Below are positions 48,208 through 53,727 of a DNA stretch of 64,000 nucleotides, piece by piece. The stretch's first letter is position 1. Each line of letters begins with the position of its first letter. The position numbers and the translations under genes were made by a program. The stretch is taken from the NCBI GenBank assembly GCA_905479065.1, contig CAJQLB010000036.1, forward strand, positions 1 to 64,000, given 5' to 3'. Origin of the DNA: an uncultured Flavobacteriaceae bacterium (GTDB lineage Bacteria > Bacteroidota > Bacteroidia > Flavobacteriales > Flavobacteriaceae). The notes beneath the pieces were generated by a model that was not told the DNA's origin, ran no database searches, and was given only the letters and a program-made list of their open reading frames with translations.

Positions 48208-48292
48208 GATATATATCCTCGTTATGTAGACACCAATTAGCTATTTGGTATGGTTATTGAATTGTTTTTTAAAACTTTTAATTTTTCAATTT

Positions 48293-48823
48293 TTGGCACA
48301 TATATCTGAACAACATATTGTACGTCTTTTAAAAAATGGTGACAATGAGGCAATAGCTATAATTTATGAAAATTACGCAAGTGCATTATTTGGGATTATT
48401 TTAAAAATTACGATTAATGAGTCACTGGCAGAGGATGCGTTACAAGAAAGTATCATTAAAATTTGGAAATATGCACACAGGTACGATTCTAAAAAGGCTA
48501 AACTTTTTACATGGATGTATCGTATCGCTCGAAATACTGCAATTGATAAATTAAGAAGTCACAATTTAAAGCATCATAAAGAAGTCCAAATAACGAACTC
48601 TAACGTATTTAAACTAACATCAAGTAACTTTAATCAAGACACAATCGATTTAAAAAAACACTTGGCAAATTTAGATTTAAAATATCAGACAGTCATCAAT
48701 GCCTTATATTTTGGAGGTATGACACAACAAGAAGCAAGCGACGAGCTCAATATCCCTCTAGGCACAATTAAATCGCGATTAAAAATTGGATTAAGGGAAC
48801 TAAGAAAGATTTACAATCCATAA
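48293..48823 (+). CDS. ECF-type RNA polymerase sigma factor
   Basis: An extracytoplasmic-function sigma factor of about 176 aa. Region 2 (DALQESIIKIWKYAHRYDSKKAKLFTWMYRIARNTAIDKLRS) and region 4 (LDLKYQTVINALYFGGMTQQEASDELNIPLGTIKSRLKIGLREL) are complete. There is no ATG upstream of the domain: TTG at 48293 (reading AHISEQHIVRLLKNG) fits family starts; the frame extends to a TTG at 48245 with a hydrophobic leader unlikely in a sigma factor. Its anti-sigma partner gene follows after 11 nt. Confidence 0.88.
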   Translation: MAHISEQHIVRLLKNGDNEAIAIIYENYASALFGIILKITINESLAEDALQESIIKIWKYAHRYDSKKAKLFTWMYRIARNTAIDKLRSHNLKHHKEVQITNSNVFKLTSSNFNQDTIDLKKHLANLDLKYQTVINALYFGGMTQQEASDELNIPLGTIKSRLKIGLRELRKIYNP

Positions 48824-48834
48824 TATAAAAATTA

Positions 48835-49632
48835 ATGACATCAAGGATACAGAATTTCCTTAAATCGGGATTACTAGAAAAGTACGTTCAGGGTGAAACC
48901 ACAAAACAGGAGTCTCATAAAGTTGACGACTTTATCAATCAACACCCAGAAATTAAAGAAAAATATCTCAAATTAGAAGCGCAACTTGAACTAGAAGCTC
49001 AAATTCATGCCGTTACTCCACCGGAGGGAGTTTTAGAATCAATATTTGATGTTATAAATAAAAAATCAGTCTCAGCATCAAAATCTACTGGTAGCATCAT
49101 CCATTCATGGTTGGCCATAGCAGCAAGTATTATAGCTCTAGTCTTTGCCGGTACGGCATTAATGCTTTACAGTCATAATAAAGAGCTGTTAAGAGAAAAT
49201 AACACTATTGTTGAAGAAATTTTTGATTTAAGAAAAGATATTGACGAAAACAACAATAAACTAGATGATATAGTACATGCGTTCAACAAATTAAATAATC
49301 CTGAAACTGAAAAATATGTCTTGCGTGGAAATTCAAGGGCTAAAAATTTAAAAACAGTGGCTTATATCAATGCTAGTGACAAGTCCTCCTTAATTGATGT
49401 TGTGTCGTTACCTGAACTTTCGGATGAACAAACCTATCAAATGTGGGCAAATCTGCAAGATAAAAAAATCAACTTAGGGACGTTAGGTACCTCTAACGGA
49501 AAACTTCAACCTGTCCCATATATTGAAGATGTCCTAAGTTTGAGCATCACTATTGAACCAAAAGATGCAAATGAATTTGAAACCAGTGAAAATTCGGTAG
49601 CTGAAATACCTATTAAGTCAAGAGAAAATTAA
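48835..49632 (+). CDS. Membrane anti-sigma factor (RskA/anti-sigma-K type)
   Basis: A 265-aa single-pass membrane protein. The N-terminal cytoplasmic part has the anti-sigma zinc-less helical domain (LLEKYVQGETTKQESHKVDDFI), then a membrane segment at about residues 98-117 (WLAIAASIIALVFAGTALML), a coiled coil (about 122-160, LLRENNTIVEEIFDLRKDID) and the C-terminal RskA domain (YINASDKSSLIDVVSLPEL, YQMWANLQDKKINLGTL, LSITIEPKD). It should hold the upstream ECF sigma factor inactive at the membrane. Confidence 0.9.
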   Translation: MTSRIQNFLKSGLLEKYVQGETTKQESHKVDDFINQHPEIKEKYLKLEAQLELEAQIHAVTPPEGVLESIFDVINKKSVSASKSTGSIIHSWLAIAASIIALVFAGTALMLYSHNKELLRENNTIVEEIFDLRKDIDENNNKLDDIVHAFNKLNNPETEKYVLRGNSRAKNLKTVAYINASDKSSLIDVVSLPELSDEQTYQMWANLQDKKINLGTLGTSNGKLQPVPYIEDVLSLSITIEPKDANEFETSENSVAEIPIKSREN

Positions 49633-49699: not shown

Positions 49700-49707
49700 T
49701 ATCTTTG
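49700..49707 (+). promoter_or_regulatory. Bacteroidota -7 element (TATCTTTG)
   Basis: TATCTTTG (TAnnTTTG) lies 17-24 nt before the GTG of the small membrane protein gene, separating that gene and those downstream from the sigma/anti-sigma pair. A TTTG 28 nt upstream is somewhat too far. Confidence 0.45.
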
Positions 49708-49723
49708 TACAAATTATTTTATC

Positions 49724-49927
49724 GTGAAACTTCTTTTAATAACAGTCATCCTTCTGGGTGCAGGAATCGCAGGAATAGCGATTAAATTATGGGCTAAAAA
49801 AGACGGTGAGTTTGCGGGAACTTGTGCGAGTCAAAATCCTCATTTAAATAAAGATGCTGAGGCATGTGGATTTTGTGGGAAAACTCCGGAGCAATTTAAA
49901 GATTGTCGTGACGAAAAAGTCTCGTAA
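49724..49927 (+). CDS. Small membrane-anchored four-cysteine protein
   Basis: A 67-aa protein with GTG start. Residues 1-22 are a hydrophobic anchor or signal (KLLLITVILLGAGIAGIAI). The remainder holds four cysteines, C34, C48, C51 and C61, in the order C-x13-C-x2-C-x9-C (GTCASQN, EACGFCGK, KDCRDE). The CGFCG part resembles a metal- or Fe-S-binding knuckle. Homologues are widespread in Bacteroidota as 'membrane or secreted protein' with no known role. A -7 element lies just upstream; the glycosyltransferase gene follows after 5 nt. Confidence 0.8.
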   Translation: MKLLLITVILLGAGIAGIAIKLWAKKDGEFAGTCASQNPHLNKDAEACGFCGKTPEQFKDCRDEKVS

Positions 49928-49932
49928 CTTCA

Positions 49933-51045
49933 ATGCTAGTTGTTGATTTTATTTTCACTGCTTTTTGCTTCACTATTGGTGTTCAAATTATTTATTACGG
50001 TTTTATTTTTTCAAAATTTGCATTCGCTAAAACTGATGAGCCGTTAGTAAAAAACATTCCTGTTTCGGTCATTATATGTGCAAAAAATGAAGCTCACAAT
50101 TTATCCTTGCTTATACCAAAATTACTTAGTCAAGACTACAATAAATATGAAATTGTATTGATTAACGACAATTCTGTAGACCATACATTAGAGATCATGG
50201 AAACCTACAGAGATGTTCATAAACATATCAAAATTGTAAATGTAAAGAATAATGAAACATTTTGGGGAAGTAAAAAATACGCATTAACACTAGGTATAAA
50301 AGCCTCAACATACAACTATTTATTATTTACAGATGCAGACTGTGTACCTGCAACAAATCAGTGGATAACCTCTATGGCTAGCCACTTTTCAAATAAAAAA
50401 TCATTAGTTCTTGGTTACGGAGCTTACCAAAAACATAAAACGTCACTTCTAAATAAATTATTGAGATATGAAACGCTACTGACTGCGATACAATATTTTG
50501 GGTTTTCAAAAATCGGTATGCCTTACATGGGTGTTGGAAGGAATTTAGCCTATAGAAAAGAAGCCTTTTTTAAGGTAAACGGATTTGTTGATCATTTAAA
50601 TATCAAGTCTGGTGATGATGATCTCTTTGTAAATCAAGTTGCTACTTCTAACAACACAGGTAATTGTTTTGTAACAAAAAGTTTTACAATATCCTCAGCA
50701 AAATCAACCTGGAGAGCATGGTACTATCAAAAAAGGCGTCATATTTCAACAGCCAATCATTACAAAATAAAACATCAAATAATTTTAGGACTATTTTTCA
50801 CAAGCCAGTTATTATTTTGGTTATTAGGTTGTTCACTCCTGTTATTATCATTTAGCACTACCATTGTAATCTCTCTTATTGCAGTACGATTTTTTCTCAT
50901 TTATGTCATCGTCGGTTACGCTGCCAAGAAATTAGAAGAATTGGATGTACTACTGCTTCTGCCCTTTCTTGAAATCTTTTTAATTATTACTCAATTTTCT
51001 ATCTTTATCGTTAATTGTGTATCAAAACCTATCAATTGGAAGTAA
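49933..51045 (+). CDS. Membrane glycosyltransferase family 2 protein
   Basis: A 370-aa GT2 enzyme with an N-terminal membrane segment (VDFIFTAFCFTIGVQIIYYGFIF) and two to three at the C-terminus (IILGLFFTSQLLFWLLG and following). Seen: IPVSVIICAKNEAHNLSLLI, IVLINDNSVDHT, DxD-type LLFTDADCVP, the GxGRNLAY acceptor loop, GDDDLFVN, and QKRRH, which takes the place of the QxxRW product-translocation motif. The layout resembles a processive polysaccharide or glycolipid synthase. Its stop overlaps the start of the second ECF sigma gene. Confidence 0.9.
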   Translation: MLVVDFIFTAFCFTIGVQIIYYGFIFSKFAFAKTDEPLVKNIPVSVIICAKNEAHNLSLLIPKLLSQDYNKYEIVLINDNSVDHTLEIMETYRDVHKHIKIVNVKNNETFWGSKKYALTLGIKASTYNYLLFTDADCVPATNQWITSMASHFSNKKSLVLGYGAYQKHKTSLLNKLLRYETLLTAIQYFGFSKIGMPYMGVGRNLAYRKEAFFKVNGFVDHLNIKSGDDDLFVNQVATSNNTGNCFVTKSFTISSAKSTWRAWYYQKRRHISTANHYKIKHQIILGLFFTSQLLFWLLGCSLLLLSFSTTIVISLIAVRFFLIYVIVGYAAKKLEELDVLLLLPFLEIFLIITQFSIFIVNCVSKPINWK

Positions 51046-51587
51046 ATCAAGCGATCGAAAAGGCAAAAAAAAATAATCAAATAGCATTTAACTTTTTGTT
51101 AGACAAATTTTGGAATGATGTTTATGGTTTTTTGATTAAACGTACTGAAAATGAAAACGACGCTGAAGACATTACCATTCAAACTTTCTCACGGGCATTT
51201 GATAAAATAAACTCTTACAATCCATCCTATAATTTTAAGACATGGCTTATTACTATCTCAAAGAATTTGCACATTGATTTTTTAAGGAAAAATAAAAATA
51301 ATATTTCCGAAGACAAAAGAAGAGATTCCGAGCATCGAGTTAGTCAAATTATTGATGAATCTCCCTCACCTGAAGATGTTATTATTACCAAGCAAAATTT
51401 AGCTGAACTCCTGTTAAATATAAAAAAATTGAAACCTCATTATCAACAAGTCATTCATTTACGCTTTTTTCAAGAATTAAGTTATCAAGAAATTTCAAAT
51501 GAATTGAATGAACCTATGAATAATGTCAAAGTCAAATTACTAAGAGCGAAAAAATTATTGTCAGAAATTATTCAAAACAAAAAATGA
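51036..51587 (+). CDS. Second ECF-type RNA polymerase sigma factor, without anti-sigma gene
   Basis: A sigma factor of about 183 aa. Region 2 (VYGFLIKRTENENDAEDITIQTFSRAFDKI, FKTWLITISKNLHIDFLRK) and region 4 (LKPHYQQVIHLRFFQELSYQEISNELNEPMNNVKVKLLRAKKLL) are complete. No ATG is available; TTG at 51036 or at 51015 can start it, both overlapping the glycosyltransferase 3' end. The stop overlaps the start of the Nramp-like gene (ATGA). There is no neighbouring anti-sigma gene, so control may be through this membrane-gene context or transcription. Inference. Confidence 0.88.
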   Translation: MEVNQAIEKAKKNNQIAFNFLLDKFWNDVYGFLIKRTENENDAEDITIQTFSRAFDKINSYNPSYNFKTWLITISKNLHIDFLRKNKNNISEDKRRDSEHRVSQIIDESPSPEDVIITKQNLAELLLNIKKLKPHYQQVIHLRFFQELSYQEISNELNEPMNNVKVKLLRAKKLLSEIIQNKK

Positions 51588-52798
51588 CCGTATTTCTAAA
51601 AAAATTAGGCCCAGGTTTATTGTTTGCAGGTGCTGCTATAGGAGTTTCACATTTAGTTCAATCTACGAAAGCAGGTGCAGACTATGGTCTTGGTTTAATT
51701 TGGGCATTAATACTTGTCAATATATTTAAATACCCATTTTTTCAGTTTGGTCCTCGTTATGCCTTAGCTACAGGAGAAAGTTTACTTAGTGGCTATAAGA
51801 AATTAGGAAAAGGAATTTTGATTTGCTACTACACACTCACATTCGCAACAATGTTTACAATTCAAACTGCTGTAACAATAGTAACAGCTGGGCTGGCACA
51901 TTCGCTCTTTGGCAACATTCTGACAATTGAAATGTGGACGGTGGTTATTTTAACATTATGCGTAATAATGCTAATTGTTGGACGTTACAATCTACTAGAT
52001 CAATTAATAAAAATTATTATAATCGTGCTAACGATAAGCACACTGGTTTCAGTGACAATGGCCCTATTTAAGACAGACATTCCTCTTTCCTATGTACAAA
52101 TTTTTCCAAAAGAAGCTATTGATATTGGATTTTTAATTGCCTTTATGGGGTGGATGCCAGCACCCTTAGATATTTCAGTATGGCATTCGCTTTGGGCTGT
52201 TGAAAAAAATAACAACGATAATAAATATAATCTAAAAACCGGCCTTTTTGATTTCAATATAGGCTACTTTGCCACGATATTTTTAGGTCTATGTTTTGTT
52301 TTTTTAGGCTATTTGGTAATGTTTAATCAAAATGAAACATTTAGTAGTAATGGAGGACTATTTGCAAATCAATTAATAGATATGTACACCTCTAGCCTTG
52401 GTCAATGGGCTTACATAATTATAGGAATCGCAGCATTTACAACAATGTTTAGCACCACATTGACTACTCTCGATGCCTCTCCTAGGGCCATGCAGAAAAC
52501 CTCTCAATTACTGTTCAATAAATCATTTAGTAAAGGATATTTGTTTTGGATTTTACTGCTAGTCTTTGGAACAATTGTCATATTTTTTGTTTTTGCATCA
52601 GAAATGGGTTTATTAATTAAAATTGCGACTATTCTGTCATTTATAACAGCACCTTTTTATGCAGTAATTAATTACATGTTAATTTGTAGTAAGCATACTC
52701 CTGAAAAATGGCGCCCATCAACTTTAATGCATGTTTTGAGTTGGCTTGGTATCTTATTTTTGTTAGGATTTAGTATTTGGTATATCACACAATTATAA
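51584..52798 (+). CDS. Nramp-related membrane transporter lacking canonical metal-binding motifs
   Basis: A 404-aa inner-membrane protein with about 11 membrane segments and overall SLC11/Nramp similarity (LGPGLLFAGAAIGVSHLVQS, FFQFGPRYALATGESLLSGY, WMPAPLDISVWHS, STTLTTLDASPRAMQ). Canonical Nramp carries DPGN in TM1 and MPH in TM6 as metal ligands. Here the aligned residues are GVSH (20-23) and MPA (191-193), so the substrate is probably not the usual Mn/Fe by the usual site. It is translationally coupled to an ECF sigma gene. Annotated homologues are called 'divalent metal cation transporter'; that label is unsafe here. Confidence 0.85.
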   Translation: MTVFLKKLGPGLLFAGAAIGVSHLVQSTKAGADYGLGLIWALILVNIFKYPFFQFGPRYALATGESLLSGYKKLGKGILICYYTLTFATMFTIQTAVTIVTAGLAHSLFGNILTIEMWTVVILTLCVIMLIVGRYNLLDQLIKIIIIVLTISTLVSVTMALFKTDIPLSYVQIFPKEAIDIGFLIAFMGWMPAPLDISVWHSLWAVEKNNNDNKYNLKTGLFDFNIGYFATIFLGLCFVFLGYLVMFNQNETFSSNGGLFANQLIDMYTSSLGQWAYIIIGIAAFTTMFSTTLTTLDASPRAMQKTSQLLFNKSFSKGYLFWILLLVFGTIVIFFVFASEMGLLIKIATILSFITAPFYAVINYMLICSKHTPEKWRPSTLMHVLSWLGILFLLGFSIWYITQL

Positions 52799-52848: not shown

Positions 52849-53727
52849 ATGAGTGTAGAAATTGCTTCAAAAAATAATACCAGTCGTGCTCCTAAACCCA
52901 AATGGCTTCGTGTTAAACTTCCAACAGGTAAAAAATATACTGAGTTACGCGGTCTAGTAGACAAATATAAATTAAACACAATTTGCACCTCAGGAAGTTG
53001 CCCAAATATGGGAGAATGCTGGGGAGAAGGGACAGCTACTTTTATGATTCTGGGTAATATATGTACGCGTTCATGTGGCTTTTGTGGTGTAAAAACTGGG
53101 AGACCAGAAACTGTAGATTGGGATGAACCAGAGAAAGTAGCACGTTCTATAAAAATTATGAATATAAAACACGCTGTTCTCACAAGTGTCGACAGGGATG
53201 ATTTAAAAGATATGGGAAGCATCATGTGGAGCGAGACCATTAAGGCTGTTCGGCGAATGAATCCAAAAACCACCATGGAAACATTGATACCTGATTTTCA
53301 AGGTATTGAAAATCATCTTGACAGACTTATAAAAGCTAGTCCGGAGGTGATTTCGCACAATATGGAAACTGTAAGAAGATTAACCAGAGAAGTGCGTATT
53401 CAAGCTAAATATGACAGAAGTCTCAATGTTTTAAAGTACCTCAAAAATGCTGGTCAAAGAAGAACTAAAACGGGATTGATGCTTGGCTTAGGGGAAACAA
53501 GAGAAGAAGTTATAGAAACATTGCACGATTTAAAATCAGCATCTGTAGATGTTGTCACCATTGGACAATATCTCCAACCGAGTAAAAGACATCTTCCAGT
53601 AAAACAATTTATTACCCCTGATCAATTTGAAGAGTATAGAGAAATTGGTCTTAATTTAGGATTCCGTCATGTTGAAAGTAGCGCTTTAGTTAGATCTTCA
53701 TACAAAGCACAGAAACATATCCATTAA
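52849..53727 (+). CDS. lipA: Lipoyl synthase
   Basis: A 292-aa radical-SAM enzyme inserting sulfur into octanoyl groups on lipoyl domains such as that of the E2 protein at 17.3 kb. Both Fe-S motifs are seen: the auxiliary cluster in [12 protein letters not shown] (CX4CX5C) and the SAM cluster in [10 protein letters not shown] (CX3CX2C). The C-terminal [12 protein letters not shown] carries the conserved RSSY serine. Full length. Followed after 1 nt by the GAPDH gene. Confidence 0.97.

Follow-up and report, generated by a model that had tools for sequence, protein, structure and literature searches.

A non-canonical Nramp-related transporter shares a conserved gene block with an ECF sigma factor in the Flavobacteriaceae

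Introduction

Nramp-related proteins, presented in the available text of a 2026 preprint by Ray, Berry, and Gaudet as paraphyletic, diverse, and mostly uncharacterized (PMC12873925), retain the Nramp fold while the canonical DPGN and MPH motifs are replaced and transmembrane helix 3 (TM3) carries no acidic residue. Two of them bear most directly on the transporter considered here. YcsG/MntG of Bacillus subtilis, an importer of the non-canonical Nramp family encoded in the pxpABC operon, raises cellular Mn2+ (PMC10448178) and belongs to a "G-motif" group in the accessible part of the preprint (PMC12873925). EleNRMT, an Nramp-related Mg2+ transporter, has no transition-metal signature and is marked instead by DxxG-TxxA/T (PMC8806188). 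The NF037982 annotation names proteins of the clade considered here divalent metal transporters although the canonical metal-binding residues are absent. A clade that usually occurs once per genome and has near-invariant substrate-site residues of its own offers a good test of substrate drift within the fold.

The second gene of interest encodes an extracytoplasmic function (ECF) sigma factor, for which the SigW-type factors of B. subtilis, built of regions 2 and 4 only, are the best solved relatives. A search of the accessible literature for ECF sigma factors tied to Nramp proteins or to lipA in Bacteroidetes found no paper. Here we describe a locus in which both genes are joined and ask how the pairing compares with these systems and what it signifies.

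Results and Discussion

Organization of the gene block

The window is the whole stretch of DNA analyzed, 64,000 nucleotides of contig CAJQLB010000036.1 (assembly GCA_905479065.1, an uncultured Flavobacteriaceae bacterium), and is part of a 2.4-Mb draft genome that among named genomes matches Flavobacteriaceae most closely. Its relevant features are as follows.

48245 to 48823, + strand: another ECF sigma gene, immediately 5′ of the block (Pfam/NCBIfam)
48835 to 49632, + strand: RskA-like anti-sigma gene, partner of the upstream ECF gene (Pfam PF10099, 40.8 bits)
49700 to 49707, + strand: TATCTTTG, promoter-like element of the TAnnTTTG (-7) type, 5′ of the block (consensus match only)
49724 to 49927, + strand: small open reading frame (ORF), 67 codons, GTG start (conserved by tblastn; no Pfam family)
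49933 to 51045, + strand: glycosyltransferase family 2 gene (Pfam PF00535, 80.6 bits; stop at 51043 to 51045)
51036 to 51587, + strand: gene of 183 codons with a TTG start, encoding an ECF sigma factor with regions 2 and 4 only (Sigma70_r2, Sigma70_r4_2)
51584 to 52798, + strand: Nramp-related transporter gene, 404 codons, ATG at 51584 (Pfam PF01566, 52 bits)
52849 to 53727, + strand: lipoyl synthase gene lipA (TIGR00510, 362 bits against a cut-off of 310)

Across the Flavobacteriaceae the block runs from the small cysteine-containing ORF through the glycosyltransferase, ECF sigma, and transporter genes to lipA, the downstream neighbor of the transporter in most loci, and often continues into a GAPDH-type gene. 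The start of the sigma gene (TTG at 51036, with a second TTG at 51015) falls within the 3′ end of the preceding glycosyltransferase gene, and its stop at 51585 to 51587 forms an ATGA junction with the transporter start; the first-pass annotation had read both boundaries in this way. It had also described the sigma factor as lacking an adjacent anti-sigma gene, which holds literally, since its neighbors are the glycosyltransferase and the transporter, but leaves out the ECF gene and RskA-like partner just upstream. That pair (48245 to 49632) lies directly 5′ of the block and went unmentioned in the first-pass annotation, as did the 67-codon ORF at the head of the block.

The block sigma factor scored 108 bits against TIGR02937 (NCBIfam), and its closest solved structure is B. 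subtilis SigW (1.6e-22). Like SigW it contains regions 2 and 4 only; it differs in having no cognate anti-sigma gene beside it, as the RskA-like gene goes with the other ECF gene, and in its score of 110 bits against a SigW equivalog cut-off of 209 bits.

The product of the small ORF has one hydrophobic segment followed by GTCASQNP...CGFCGK...C, with four cysteines. In tblastn searches this ORF heads the block in nearly all loci, including sigma-less (L058 to L063) and transporter-less (L082 to L093) ones, and it is present in 43 of 296 Bacteroidota genomes sampled. We considered it as a hidden anti-sigma factor for the block sigma, a proposal weakened by its retention in genomes without the sigma factor and its occurrence elsewhere in the phylum.

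Upstream of the small ORF, the last TAnnTTTG-type element lies 22 to 28 bases before the start in 72 of 125 regions, and a scan for its -33 partner found none. We therefore rejected a two-box Bacteroidetes promoter ahead of the glycosyltransferase gene: that pattern occurred in only 6 of 68 regions, and the TAnnTTTG-type element alone was positionally conserved. The sigma and transporter genes overlap in 87 of 133 loci and are separated by no more than 30 bases in 123. Given these junctions and the conserved element, the earlier proposal that the two genes are regulated together is very probable with respect to co-expression. Retention of the short overlapping junction in most loci suggests at least coupled expression, and it tells against the rather unlikely alternative that the genes merely share an inherited order, with no functional link past read-through transcription. 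That alternative does draw on the presence in the same block of lipA and a GAPDH-type gene and on the independent loss of its parts. We consider it likely that the transporter is a permease of the Nramp-related kind, that it is transcribed together with the other genes of a conserved block, and that it is not a sensor for the sigma factor. It would probably be read from the same transcript as the sigma gene, and its translation may be coupled to that of the sigma factor by the ATGA overlap.

Fold and motifs of the transporter

The transporter matches PF01566 weakly but over its full length (52 bits against a cut-off of 29.8). A phmmer search of the PDB with the transporter alone returned nothing, while a profile of 17 transporter sequences reached the plant NRAT structure and EleNRMT. 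We built an AlphaFold2 model on 48 sequences (mean pLDDT, 79.5), for which the best Foldseek matches were Nramps, EleNRMT, and BfraNramp (TM-scores of 0.69 to 0.78, with 0.78 for Deinococcus radiodurans Nramp and 0.77 for EleNRMT). The protein is thus a non-canonical Nramp-related member of PF01566, of a kind already described. It shares with the proteins of PMC12873925 the fold, the replaced motifs, and a TM3 without an acid; the clade could not be placed in any of the groups named in that preprint, whose accessible text does not discuss the residue set described below.

The codons for the two motifs are placed as follows.

51641 to 51652, + strand: codons for GVSH, residues 20 to 23, at the DPGN position of TM1 (gapless alignment to NRAT DPSN)
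52151 to 52171, + strand: codons for WMPAPLD, residues 190 to 196, in the unwound part of TM6 (alignments and AlphaFold2 model)

GVSH aligns without gaps to DPSN of NRAT and to DPGN-type motifs, in agreement with the first-pass reading that it stands in place of DPGN. The companion reading, that MPH of TM6 has become MPA, was right that the canonical His is gone and was off by two in register. In alignments to NRAT, EleNRMT, and the other Nramp-family protein of the genome, canonical A-x-x-M-P-H lies opposite W190-M191-P192-A193-P194-L195; MPH therefore faces A193-P194-L195, and the canonical Met and His positions are A193 and L195. The AlphaFold2 model breaks TM6 at residues 191 to 196, where local confidence is low (pLDDT below 50 at 191 to 195). 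The position of the TM3 Glu falls in QTAVTIVTAG, which has no acidic residue, in an alignment less certain than that of TM1; the Glu is present in the other Nramp-family protein. The alignments thus support the claimed loss of the canonical metal ligands, with neither DPGN in TM1 nor A/CxxMPH in TM6. The other Nramp-family protein (L001; G000:C8:43645-44697) itself reads GPGT at the DPGN position and VPY at the MPH position. The genome has two Nramp-family proteins above the Pfam cut-off, and both are thus non-canonical.

Among 189 distinct homologues, G20, S22, and H23 are present in all, as are G189, W190, P192, and an acid (D or E) at position 196; M191 is present in 188, and D297 and R301 are each replaced in no more than one or two. 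Since near-invariant residues of their own (GxSH, GWMP, and the acidic 196) are kept despite the absent canonical ligands, these proteins form a distinct, selected clade, and the motif pattern is one of purifying selection on a different site rather than of decay. The same conservation led us to reject the transporter as a relic, though single copies do decay. The canonical ligands are thus replaced by G20-x-S22-H23 in TM1 together with G189-W-M-P and D/E196 in TM6. The cargo is most likely a small ion or solute, which would be carried through the alternating cycle usual for the LeuT fold, and the proton pathway of canonical Nramps is probably missing.

It is quite possible, if short of probable, that the protein is a metal importer after all, carrying Mn2+, as reported for YcsG/MntG, or another metal through His23, with the sigma factor tuning its expression to metal or stress status. 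The fold matches to Nramps and EleNRMT are consistent with this, as are H23 in place of the ligand Asn and the near-invariant M191 and D/E196 in the TM6 break. Furthermore, because "G-motif" MntG raises cellular Mn (PMC10448178 and the accessible part of PMC12873925), the missing DPGN and MPH do not by themselves exclude metal transport. However, residues G20 to H23 and W190 to A193 carry neither DxxN-A/CxxM nor the NRMT signature DxxG-TxxA/T (they read GxxH-WxxA), the TM3 Glu position is not acidic, and no metal-related gene partner was seen consistently. A bolder proposal, which we regard as speculative and somewhat unlikely, is that GxSH/GWMP proteins are an uncharacterized branch of the Nramp superfamily in which His23, the GWMP turn, and the acidic 196 make up a substrate site of a new kind for a cargo other than the known Nramp cations, its supply being set in the Flavobacteriaceae by a dedicated ECF sigma factor.

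Distribution of the pairing in the Flavobacteriaceae

We surveyed 200 Flavobacteriaceae genomes, nearly one per genus, with a match cut-off of E ≤ 1e-30. The transporter was found in 150 and the sigma factor in 188. Transporters fall into two classes, one of 110 genomes at about 49% identity or more, located in the block, and one of about 40 genomes at about 34 to 47%, located elsewhere; the gene is nearly always single copy, whether inside the slot or outside it. The sigma gene lies upstream of the block-type transporter in 104 of the 110 genomes (82 by coordinates and 22 by reading the DNA of the remaining 28), and the other 6 have no sigma match. Adjacency in 104 of 200 family genomes is far beyond chance. 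Conversely, the slot is without a transporter in 84 of the 188 genomes that have the sigma gene (the counts 104, 110, and 84 merge coordinate tables with loci read singly). Named genomes agree with this: a first parse gave the order sigma-transporter-lipA in 66 of 80, and two of the remainder, L155 and L191, turned out on closer reading to carry the sigma gene too.

The six sigma-less genomes (L058 to L063) are reduced and keep the small ORF, the transporter, and lipA; the cut-off might miss a diverged sigma gene elsewhere in them, although none turned up when the loci themselves were searched by tblastn. Among the family loci without the transporter that we read, most have lipA directly after the sigma gene. 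One genome (G170, L092) has a major facilitator superfamily (MFS) transporter in the slot, and it could be that a transporter is wanted downstream of the sigma factor. Two genera carry an extra gene between sigma and transporter (L115, 1728 to 2624; L116, 1446 to 2327), encoding a membrane protein of about 295 amino acids that has no Pfam match and overlaps the transporter start.

Origin and decay of the pairing

In the transporter tree, a single well-supported clade of 45 unites the slot transporters with those linked to lipA but not to sigma and with one relocated copy. Relatives that share about 33 to 45% identity with the block sigma are found in several further families of the order. They often lie beside a related glycosyltransferase or near lipA, and none of the loci read there has the transporter as a neighbor. 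At L240 and L248, both from another family, lipA also comes directly after the sigma gene, so that the sigma-lipA neighborhood extends beyond the presence of the transporter in it. Given one slot clade and both genes known unlinked outside the family, the simplest account is a single origin of the pairing, inside one family, from two genes that were already in existence. Confinement of the adjacency to a few related genomes, which would have told against the first-pass reading, does not strictly apply: many genomes share it, but they belong to one family and trace to one origin.

Mapped on the sigma tree, the transporter requires at least 16 gains or losses, 8 of them forced by well-supported branches; these counts come from a FastTree phylogeny of modest support, with many weak and some long branches. 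Three loci record loss or disruption directly. In G077 the transporter gene is shattered, with 7 stops, next to glycosyltransferase, sigma, lipA, and GAPDH matches that are uninterrupted. In G008 a 72-codon deletion remnant fuses residues 1 to 19 with about 342 to 401, and in G033 (L097, 2125 to 12022) an insert of about 9 kb divides the gene, the sigma gene being intact in both of the latter. With the caveats attached to the trees, these data show a single entry of the transporter into the position between sigma and lipA, at or close to the ancestor of the family, followed by many losses or decays while the sigma gene stayed in place. The insert in G033 carries a DDE transposase, a TetR regulator, a phosphodiesterase/nucleotide pyrophosphatase, and a SusC/SusD-type pair.

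Relation between transporter and sigma factor

The first-pass annotation had proposed that the transporter might act on the sigma factor as its one-to-one sensor. As a membrane sensor or anti-sigma equivalent, the transporter would control sigma release through substrate occupancy. Tight ATGA-type coupling in an order conserved across the family and the lack of an anti-sigma gene directly beside the block sigma are what such a pair would offer, and we nevertheless find this reading highly improbable. The sigma factor persists in the 84 genomes without a slot transporter and next to pseudogenes, while the transporter persists beside lipA in the six sigma-less genomes. Homologues elsewhere in Bacteroidota have no sigma neighbor in any of the loci read, which, with the six family genomes, also sets aside the expectation that GxSH/GWMP transporters always adjoin an ECF gene. 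Linked transporters are 401 to 430 amino acids long and unlinked ones 405 to 447; since the unlinked homologues are no smaller, the linked form has no extra sensor domain, cytoplasmic or otherwise. That each gene survives without the other, that no domain has been added, and that single copies occur in and out of the slot together argue against a sensor role.

The Flavobacteriaceae pairing instead looks like a shared operon slot. In the co-transcribed block that we favor, the transporter would be a plain multihelix permease, with no additional domain to hold a sigma factor, and would not act as its sensor. Against this explanation, the slot clade keeps the sigma-transporter order with very tight junctions, and a functional link stronger than co-expression is conceivable there. 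The MFS transporter in the slot of L092 weighs in the same direction. More generally, tight adjacency of a sigma factor and a transporter, even with an ATGA overlap, need not signify a sensor pair.

Neighborhoods of the unlinked homologues

Neighbors of the unlinked homologues, named by Pfam scan and otherwise by eye from sequence, include FabK/nitronate monooxygenase-like, subtilase, DUF218, lipoate ligase, DnaK, and other genes, with no constant partner. A pxpABC (5-oxoproline) context, guessed from neighbor sizes and from YcsG, was rejected, as it was not found for this clade. These neighborhoods bear on the possible though doubtful reading that the protein carries a non-metal solute, organic or neutral, as in the wider APC superfamily. 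Such a cargo would suit a protein that lacks the canonical ligands, has Gly in place of the TM1 Asp, and shows weaker yet significant structural similarity to AdiC and other amino-acid transporters (TM-score of about 0.65). The missing pxpABC context and the recurrence in other Bacteroidota of FabK/nitronate monooxygenase-like and subtilase genes tell against it. In four loci from several families of the order (L109, L110, L111, and L112), unlinked GxSH transporters adjoin a FabK/nitronate monooxygenase-like gene, and in two of these a subtilase-like gene lies past it.
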